Origin: an uncultured Burkholderiales bacterium
GTDB taxonomy: Bacteria > Pseudomonadota > Gammaproteobacteria > Burkholderiales > Burkholderiaceae_C
Length of the DNA stretch: 32,153 bases
Direction: 5' to 3'
Assembly (NCBI GenBank): GCA_903892175.1
Contig: CAITHK010000014.1
Location: forward strand, 1-32,153
Of the stretch, positions 7,804 to 10,300 are shown piece by piece. Position 1 is the first letter of the stretch. The number at the start of each line of letters is the position of its first letter. The notes under the pieces are model-generated. The model did not search any database. It was not told the origin of the DNA and was given only the letters and a program-made list of their open reading frames with translations. The position numbers were made by a program, and so were the translations under genes.

Positions 7804-8934
7804 TCATCGCTCGAGCAAGATGCGCAGCATGCGGCGCAGGGGTTCGGCAGCGCCCCACAGCAATTGATCGCCGACGGTGAAGGCGCCCAAATAATCGTTG
7901 CCCATCGCCAGTTTGTGCAAGCGGCCCACTGGGACGGTCAAGGTGCCAGTGACGGCGGCAGGCGTGAGCTCACGCTCAGAGATGTCACGTTGGTTGGGCA
8001 CGACTTTGACCCAGTCGTTGGCTTGAGCCAAGATCGACTCAATTTCATCCATGGGCACATCTTGCTTGAGCTTGATGGTCAAGCCCTGCGAGTGGCAACG
8101 CATGGCGCCAATGCGCACGCACAAGCCATCAATCGGGATGCTGCCCGCACTGCGGAAAGCCGGGTTGCCCAAAATCTTGTTGCATTCGGCGCCGCCTTTC
8201 CATTCTTCTTTGCTCTGGCCGTGATCGACCGGCACATCGATCCATGGAATCAAGCTGCCAGCCAAGGCGGTGTTGCGGAAATTTTGGGTGGGGAAGGCAG
8301 CGCTGCGCATGGTGGCCGAGACCTTGCGGTCGATGTCCAAGATGGCAGACGATGGGTTGGCCAAGTCGTCTTTGACGGCATCGTGCAAGGCGCCCATTTG
8401 GCTCAACAGCTCGCGCATGTTTTGAGCGCCAGCACCCGATGCAGCTTGGTAGGTCATGGCGCTGACCCACTCAATCATGTGGTGCTTGAATAAGCCGCCC
8501 ATGGCCATCAACATCAGGCTGACGGTGCAGTTGCCGCCAATCCAGTTTTTGCCGCCTTGGGCGAGGGCGTTGTCGATGACATCGCGGTTGACAGGATCGA
8601 GCACGATCACGGCATCTTCGGCCATGCGCAAGGACGACGCAGCGTCGATCCAGTGGCCCGTCCAACCTGCGGCGCGCAGTTGGGGGTAAACCTCTTTGGT
8701 GTAGTCGCCGCCTTGGCAAGTCAAGATGATGTCGCAGCGCTTGAGTGCAGCGATGTCATGCGCATCTTGCAGGGTGGTTTCGTTTTTGGCTTGTGCAGGG
8801 GCTTGGCCACCTGAGTTGGAGGTAGAGAAAAAGACAGGTTCAATCAGATCAAAGTCTTGTTCTTGAACCATGCGGTCAATCAACACCGAGCCGACCATGC
8901 CGCGCCAACCGACTAAACCTACTAACTTGCTCAT
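7804..8934 (-). CDS. asd: Aspartate-semialdehyde dehydrogenase
   Basis: Reduces aspartyl phosphate to aspartate semialdehyde with NADPH, the branch point to lysine/diaminopimelate, threonine, methionine and isoleucine. At 376 residues it is the long gram-negative form. The Rossmann motif is [13 protein letters not shown] at residues 5-17, the catalytic cysteine is in [12 protein letters not shown] (about residue 135), and the catalytic histidine is in [14 protein letters not shown] (about residue 275). The ATG is preceded by GAAAAGG. A 280-bp leader upstream contains a short peptide rich in aspartate-family residues and competing hairpins, which suggests control by attenuation. Confidence 0.97.
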
Positions 8935-8957
8935 TTCAACGCCTTTTCAACTGCCAT

Positions 8958-9020
8958 AAAAAGTGCCAGACCTGGCTGTGTGCCCGGCTCGTCTGGCCGG
9001 GAGGCGCGCGACGAGCCAGA
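8958..9020 (-). promoter_or_regulatory. Attenuator hairpins upstream of asd
   Basis: After the leader-peptide stop, the minus strand contains TCTGGC (9015-9020), which can pair with GCCAGA (8992-8997). The overlapping GGCTCGTC can pair with GACGAGCC (8986-8993 with 9010-9017, perfect 8 bp). The same downstream GCCAGAC (8991-8997) can instead pair with GTCTGGC (8965-8971), followed by AC and five Ts (8958-8962), a terminator-like end. The upstream pairings exclude the terminator, the classical attenuation layout. Confidence 0.55.
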
Positions 9021-9025
9021 GCGGG

Positions 9026-9130
9026 TTAGCCCTTGATGGTCGTGGTTTTCAAAATGTATGCACGCGAGCTCTCAGCAGCCTGGGCTGCTGGTGAATGGTT
9101 CATGGGGATGAACTGACAGGCGTGAAACAT
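9026..9130 (-). CDS. Putative attenuation leader peptide for asd
   Basis: A 34-codon ORF beginning ATG TTT CAC and ending with codons for YILKTTTIKG then TAA. It is too short for the ORF track. The last ten residues include three threonines, two lysines, two isoleucines and a leucine. Lys, Thr and Ile are end products of the pathway that Asd feeds, as in the E. coli thr operon leader. Its stop lies 5 nt before the first arm of the antiterminator-like stem, so a ribosome at the stop would cover that arm. The ATG is 6 nt after a TACAAT -10-like hexamer, so the message could be leaderless. An internal ATG (MNHSPAAQ) is an alternative start. Confidence 0.5.
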   Translation of the reverse strand: MFHACQFIPMNHSPAAQAAESSRAYILKTTTIKG

Positions 9131-9136
9131 GCTTAG

Positions 9137-9169
9137 ATTGTATCGGATGGCTTTTGGGGCCTGCGTCAA
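9137..9169 (-). promoter_or_regulatory. Candidate promoter for the asd leader
   Basis: On the minus strand TACAAT (9142-9137) matches the sigma-70 -10 at five of six positions. An upstream TTGACG (9169-9164) resembles a -35 but the spacing is 21 bp, longer than ideal. Transcription would begin at about the A of the leader-peptide ATG. Confidence 0.4.
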
Positions 9170-9214: not shown

Positions 9215-10300
9215 TCAGCGCAGTGCGTTCACCACCGCGTCGCCCATTTGCGCCGTGCCTACTTGGGTGGTGCCCGCACTGTAGATGTCAGGCGTACGCA
9301 GGCCTTGGGCCAGCACCGCTTTGACGGCAGTTTCAATGCGGTCAGCCGCGGCAGCTTGGTTCAAGCTGAAACGCAACATCATGGCGGCGCTCAGAATGGT
9401 CGCCAAGGGGTTGGCCACGCCTTTGCCCGCGATGTCGGGCGCGCTGCCATGGCTGGGTTCGTACAGGCCTTGGTTTTTTGAGTTCAAAGAGGCCGAAGGC
9501 AGCATGCCGATCGAGCCCGTGAGCATGGAAGCTTCGTCGCTCAAGATGTCGCCAAACATATTGCCCGTCACCACCACGTCAAAGCGCTTGGGTTCTTTCA
9601 CCAGTTGCATCGCGGCGTTGTCCACGTACATGTGGTCCAGCGCGATGTCTGGGTACTCTTTGCCGACTTCGCTCACCACGTCTTTCCAAAACTGGAAGGT
9701 TTCCAGCACGTTGGCTTTGTCGACGCTGGTCACGCGGCCTTCACTGCCAGAAGCTTTGCGTTTGCGAGCGGCTTGAAAGGCCACGTGGGCAATCCGTTCA
9801 ATTTCAGGTTTGCTGTAGCGCATGGTGTCAAACGCTTCCTCTGAGCCAGGGAAGTGACCGTCTGTTGCCACGCGGCGTCCACGCGGTTGGCCAAAGTAAA
9901 TGTCGCCCGTCAGCTCGCGAATGATCAAGATGTCCAGGCCCGAAATCAACTCAGGCTTCAAGCTCGACGCACCCACCAGTTGCTCGTAGCAAATGGCGGG
10001 GCGAAAGTTGGCAAAAAGCCCCATGTTTTTGCGCAAACCCAAAATGGCTTGCTCTGGGCGAAGGGGGCGATCCAAGGTGTCGTATTTCCAGTCACCCACC
10101 GCGCCAAACAGCACGGCATCCGATTGCATGGCCAACTTGAGGGTGGCGTCGGGCAAGGGGTGTCCGTGCGCGTCAAAGGCCGCACCGCCCACCAAGGCGG
10201 TTTCCATCTCAAACGTCAGGTCCAAAACATTCAATACTTTGATGGCTTCAGCGACGATCTCGGTGCCAATGCCGTCTCCTGGCAAAACTGCAATTTTCAT
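9215..10300 (-). CDS. leuB: 3-isopropylmalate dehydrogenase
   Basis: NAD-dependent oxidative decarboxylation of 3-isopropylmalate to 2-oxoisocaproate, the third step of leucine synthesis. The 361-residue protein begins with the diagnostic [15 protein letters not shown]. It has the substrate-binding [13 protein letters not shown] and [14 protein letters not shown], and the C-terminal [14 protein letters not shown] signature. The ATG start is 20 bp after leuD, with AGAAAG as a weak ribosome site. It is the last gene of the leuCDB group; asd follows after a regulatory gap. Confidence 0.97.

Follow-up and report, generated by a model that had tools for sequence, protein, structure and literature searches.

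The 32,153-nucleotide stretch of DNA analysed here (the window) carries, on its minus strand between leuB and asd, what is likely to be a ribosome-mediated attenuator through which asd would respond to the supply of Thr, Ile and Lys. The first-pass annotation had proposed the logic of the E. coli thr leader for this gap, and that logic fits both the window and those relatives in which the leader is a separate ORF, where codons for Thr, Ile and Lys are retained, a stem covaries and hairpins with a U-tract are enriched. Our reading is built by comparison of sequences and draws on the composition of the peptide tail, its codon bias, the covariation of the putative antiterminator (stem A), the enrichment of terminators and, in relatives whose leader is fused to LeuB, the coevolution of a loop with the asd start; transcription start, stalling, termination and the direction of regulation are the parts that we infer. 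Beyond the earlier proposal, the analysis suggests a transcription start placed by a TACAAT box, the use of the LeuB C-terminus as a leader in many relatives and, in these fused forms, the asd start region as the probable pairing partner.

The genes leuC, leuD and leuB are followed on the minus strand by a gap and then by asd, all four being named by NCBIfam models. The presumed regulated gene, asd (7804..8934), encodes aspartate-semialdehyde dehydrogenase (TIGR01745 asd_gamma, 622.9 bits against a cut-off of 402.9) and is preceded by a Shine-Dalgarno zone, AAAAGGCG (8940..8947), whereas leuB (9215..10300; TIGR00169) encodes 3-isopropylmalate dehydrogenase. Thr, Ile and Lys derive from the Asd product, as does Met. 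As the first-pass annotation had described, the gap contains a minus-strand ORF of 34 codons plus stop (9026..9130; ATG at 9130, TAA at 9028-9026), which encodes the peptide MFHACQFIPMNHSPAAQAAESSRAYILKTTTIKG and ends in ILKTTTIKG directly before the stop. The candidate control codons, ATT TTG AAA ACC ACG ACC ATC AAG (9032..9055; Ile Leu Lys Thr Thr Thr Ile Lys), give this short ORF the cluster of codons for products of the regulated pathway that is expected of an attenuator.

An open frame of 31-42 codons, most commonly 33, is found in 71 of the 71 separate-ORF relatives scored. The peptide itself is under weak protein-like constraint (pN/pS ~0.7), as expected of a leader, so the case for its translation rests on the open frame and the tail. 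Six nucleotides upstream of the window's leader ATG lies TACAAT (9137..9142, minus strand), a -10-like box and presumed promoter, which is matched at 6/6 or 5/6 positions, 3-10 nt (mostly 6-9) 5' of the ATG, in 71 of 72 ORFs scored. Its position would therefore put the transcript start at, or a few nucleotides from, the ATG, and the leader of the separate forms is probably leaderless. Upstream of the box, the separate-ORF relatives show no recognisable -35 consensus, and the promoter may depend on an activator or be of an unusual type. Window positions 9150-9137 and their counterparts in relatives form a strongly conserved CCATCCGCTACAAT-like block, likewise without a -35 consensus. Within the ORF, a hairpin (CAGCAGC-CCAG-GCTGCTG, 9073..9090, minus strand, -11.8 kcal/mol) has counterparts at a comparable position in many relatives and exceeds shuffled sequences in stability in 55 of 72; it may be an RNA polymerase pause hairpin, for which we grade the evidence as moderate.

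The first-pass annotation had asked for conserved Thr, Lys and Ile codons and a covarying stem in relatives, and had made its proposal depend on frame and pairings being conserved in close relatives. The comparison with relatives did not refute it. We collected 190 regions upstream of asd homologues and applied a rule based on the count of Thr, Ile and Lys in the nine residues before a stop no more than 260 nt from asd; the rule picked 139 regions and, once two short spurious frames were dropped, left 137, of which 130 are distinct sequences. In these 137 of 190 regions, a Thr/Ile/Lys-rich tail and a stem precede asd, with the stop typically ~90 nt (71-169) upstream of the gene. The sequences are not independent of each other, and the swap and shuffle tests used below correct for kinship in part. 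A covariance model built from 27 diverse members matched 308 of 401 genomes and 117 of 141 genera of the window's GTDB family, nearly always with one copy per genome; the window's own genome gives a single match, at asd (9.5e-20), and nothing else below E = 0.9. Only weak matches (best 8e-5 per genome) were obtained from 150 genomes of other families of the order.

Several loci depart from this pattern. One (L230, on contig 11 of G071) has a second weak model match away from asd (E = 3e-5), which is probably due to chance. Four others (L025, L026, L028 and L029) lack the leader wholly and have ~30 nt between leuB and asd. In Parvibium lacunae (L064), a Thr/Ile/Lys-rich leader (..TAKISTIKTIKTIIG*) lies ~72 nt upstream of asd and is accompanied by a different hairpin; it is perhaps an independent or very diverged version. 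The family also contains two well-separated types of Asd, ~84-97% (L002-L042) and ~70% (L091-L111) identical to that of the window. The leader element accompanies both types, suggesting that it and asd can each be exchanged without the other.

Relatives carry the tail in one of two architectures. In 72 distinct sequences (the diverged L064 left out), it belongs to a separate ORF, as in the window, where LeuB has an ordinary C-terminus; in the other 57, there is no separate ORF, and LeuB has a C-terminal tail whose stop lies at the corresponding position ahead of stem A. Curvibacter delicatus NBRC 14919 (L017) and Limnohabitans are examples with a separate ORF, and Curvibacter sp. PAE-UM (L030) is one of the fused form. 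Thr, Ile and Lys constitute ~82% of the last nine residues in separate and ~76% in fused forms, and all three are present among the last ten residues in 71/72 and 57/57 tails, respectively. Met is absent or rare in the tails, although it is also an Asd product. The order of the residues changes from tail to tail, with 31 different strings of the last eight residues in each class; what is conserved is thus codon identity and not a fixed peptide. This bears on whether the nascent peptide itself might arrest the ribosome, as SecM and TnaC do, instead of the ribosome decoding starved codons slowly. The high conservation of the peptide end in separate forms (KTTTIKG) would suit such an arrest, but arrest peptides require fixed residues, and the fused tails reorder theirs freely while retaining T, I and K (ITKTITKG, TTTKTIKS, KTISITTKR); together with the 31 strings per class, this makes arrest very unlikely.

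Codon choice in the fused tails differs from that in the LeuB body. ATT accounts for 63% of Ile codons in the tails and 12% of those in the body (p = 3e-23), and AAA for 49% and 10% of Lys codons, respectively (p = 1e-18), p values that are uncorrected for the relatedness of the sequences. The sensitivity of attenuators is set by codon choice (PMC1183508). The median number of residues after MGDAV in LeuB is 12 in fused forms, compared with 5 in the separate class and 4 in relatives without the element, and Thr, Ile and Lys account for 0.80, 0.17 and 0.09 of the last seven residues of LeuB in these groups. A tail that is part of LeuB in 57 sequences could in principle have been selected for the function of the enzyme and not for sensing. 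This we regard as very unlikely: the tail runs up to the stem at which the free leader ORF also stops, its codon bias is opposite to that of the LeuB body, and it is missing from the LeuB of separate forms and of relatives without the element. We slightly favour the fuller proposal that, in nearly half of the sequences, a LeuB tail written in rare synonymous codons serves as the asd sensor, and that free and fused leaders have swapped repeatedly, with the output moving from termination to translation. At least seven changes between the separate and fused states were counted on an Asd protein tree, a quick tree with many weak branches.

Stem A follows the tail. In the window, it comprises 11 bp between a 5' arm, TCTGGCTCGTC (region 2; 9020-9010), and a 3' arm, GACGAGCCGGG (region 3; 8993-8983), both on the minus strand. 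It begins with the TCTGGC that the first-pass annotation had placed 5 nt after the stop, at 9020, and its arms pair as had been claimed, GGCTCGTC (9017-9010) with GACGAGCC (8993-8986). Across 27 diverse sequences, 93.5% of cells are paired and four pairs are changed on both sides; the covariation score (0.232 vs 0.174) was reached by none of 500 shuffles. The onset of the stem, mostly 2-6 nt past the stop in relatives, means that a ribosome at the stop covers the 5' arm, whereas stalling on the control codons leaves that arm exposed, which is the placement expected of an antiterminator whose pairing is blocked by a ribosome at the stop. A further pairing spans the stop itself: around ~9031-9015 and in relatives, the last sense codon and the stop can pair with the start of the stem A 5' arm (GGGCTG/CAGCTC, AGACTG/CAGTCT), a hairpin formed with CAGCYC in 63% of sequences vs 25% of shuffles. 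Pairing of region 2 with the asd start codon showed no coevolution in 47 representatives (p = 0.54).

The competing structure described by the first-pass annotation is likewise present. GCCAGAC (8997-8991) can pair alternatively with GTCTGGC (8971-8965), followed by AC and then TTTTT (8958..8962), to give a terminator-like hairpin (regions 3:4; 8965..8997, minus strand, -15.1 kcal/mol) that is mutually exclusive with stem A. A strict terminator scan of the window found none, because the loop of the hairpin is long. The folding of this region is unremarkable (z = -1.1 vs shuffles), and folding statistics on the window by itself fail to separate the element from shuffles; it is therefore conservation that makes the case. 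At a threshold of -8 kcal/mol and with 0-2 nt of spacer allowed, 46 of 72 separate forms had a hairpin followed by a U-tract, compared with 12% of shuffles, and in 44 of the 46 the 3' arm of stem A forms part of the hairpin or lies within it; the fused forms gave 11 of 57 (shuffles, 7%). A count with no spacer and at -6 kcal/mol or better yielded 31 hairpins in separate forms and missed that of the window. GCCAGAC/GTCTGGC in exactly this form occurs in 15 of 130 sequences; it is a local feature, and we rejected it as the general pair. What is general is a hairpin resembling a terminator that incorporates or surrounds the 3' arm. A predicted terminator with a U-tract that excludes the antiterminator is found in the window and in separate forms, and is missing from most fused forms.

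A hairpin and a promoter-like box between leuB and asd might also have no further role than to terminate or process the leu operon transcript and to provide an internal promoter for asd, with the ORF and the LeuB tail as by-products. Stem A, however, has no U-tract behind it, the composition and rare-codon bias of the tail call for a coding explanation, and the tail is missing from LeuB where the element is absent, so that we consider this reading very unlikely.

The attenuator that we favour would work as follows. Transcription would start at the leader ATG or close to it, and translation would follow immediately. When charged Thr, Ile or Lys tRNA is scarce, the ribosome would stall within the last eight codons and leave region 2 free to pair with region 3; stem A would then form, and RNA polymerase would read into asd. 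With ample supply, the ribosome would reach the stop and cover region 2, region 3 would enter the hairpin before the T-tract, and transcription would stop. Since stem A formed with its loop unpaired is often the energetically favoured fold, repression would depend on co-transcriptional timing. In fused relatives, the sensor and stem A are kept, and the alternative partner of the loop would be the translation-start region of asd.

This last feature raises the question of whether attenuation acts on translation throughout, with the ribosome at the stop allowing the loop (CGCCCTT) to block the asd Shine-Dalgarno sequence and the U-tract hairpins being secondary. In the window, the corresponding loop segment, CGCCT (9002..9006, minus strand), is complementary to AGGCG in the Shine-Dalgarno zone, as seen in folds in which the 12 nt that follow the stop were masked as a rough ribosome footprint. 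With this mask, the loop pairs with AAGGGCG in many separate forms, and the unpaired probability of their Shine-Dalgarno sequence drops from 0.455 to 0.281, with a decrease in 56 of 72. A strong signal comes from the fused forms, in which the loop and downstream sequences of the same locus pair better than swapped ones (z = -6.5, p = 0.0002; 28 representatives below 80% identity). Pooled tests had suggested loop/start coevolution in all forms, an idea that we rejected when a split by class left it in the fused forms only; the separate forms have no lineage-specific coevolution (p = 0.89). Comparison of the free and masked states showed no sequestration of the start in fused forms. A modest effect appeared once stem A, the first of the structures to be transcribed, was forced: openness of the asd start region was 0.61 with stem A forced vs 0.53 with the ribosome at the stop in fused representatives (p = 0.038), and 0.54 vs 0.43 in separate forms (p = 0.027). 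In the window itself, no change is predicted; the Shine-Dalgarno zone is expected to be largely paired in either state, which leaves the terminator reading as the only workable one there. Given also the enrichment of U-tract hairpins in separate forms, translational control throughout is possible but doubtful. In the fused forms, by comparison, a predicted alternative pairing covers the downstream translation start, and since the loop is predicted to pair with this region, control there is probably exerted on translation. We conclude that the separate forms, including the window, probably use transcription attenuation and the fused forms control of translation, the latter being less certain.

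Systems of this kind are known, but no account was found of one at this gene or in this bacterial group, nor, most notably, of an enzyme-fused leader. An Rfam search gave no family match at the gathering score and, with E values up to 10, only an unrelated snoRNA model. In the open-access literature, we found neither an asd leader peptide nor such a LeuB tail. An attenuator at asd would act where the routes to Lys, Thr, Met and Ile diverge in a large family of environmental bacteria. Its LeuB-fused form would illustrate how a leader peptide can merge with the preceding gene, with the tail of an enzyme becoming the sensor, and the repeated interchange of free and fused forms would open the steps from transcription to translation attenuation to study in close relatives.

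A close counterpart in logic is E. coli thrL (Thr_leader in Rfam), in which a leader peptide rich in Thr and Ile codons is followed by competing antiterminator and terminator structures. The asd element shares the amino-acid-codon-rich leader peptide and the downstream antiterminator and terminator, but it precedes asd and not thrABC, adds Lys codons and occurs in another bacterial group; moreover, its leader is probably leaderless, and its fused forms mostly have no terminator. In the E. coli rph-pyrE intercistronic attenuator, the end of the upstream structural gene replaces the leader ORF, and UTP is sensed via RNA polymerase pausing. The fused asd form resembles it in using a gene end as the leader and differs in the proposed sensing of amino acids by control codons. 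A transcript that starts at the leader ATG, and hence a leaderless leader mRNA, is known from the trp attenuator trpLE(G) of Sinorhizobium meliloti (PMC7298713). The asd leader probably starts in the same way; trpLE(G) has Trp codons and controls a trp gene, and a sequence relation is not expected. Leader peptides without terminators, to which the fused forms may be compared, are covered together with the actinobacterial LEU element (PMC1262725); that element differs from the asd leader in its Leu codons, its position at leuA, its pseudoknot and the pairing of the control codons themselves with the Shine-Dalgarno box.
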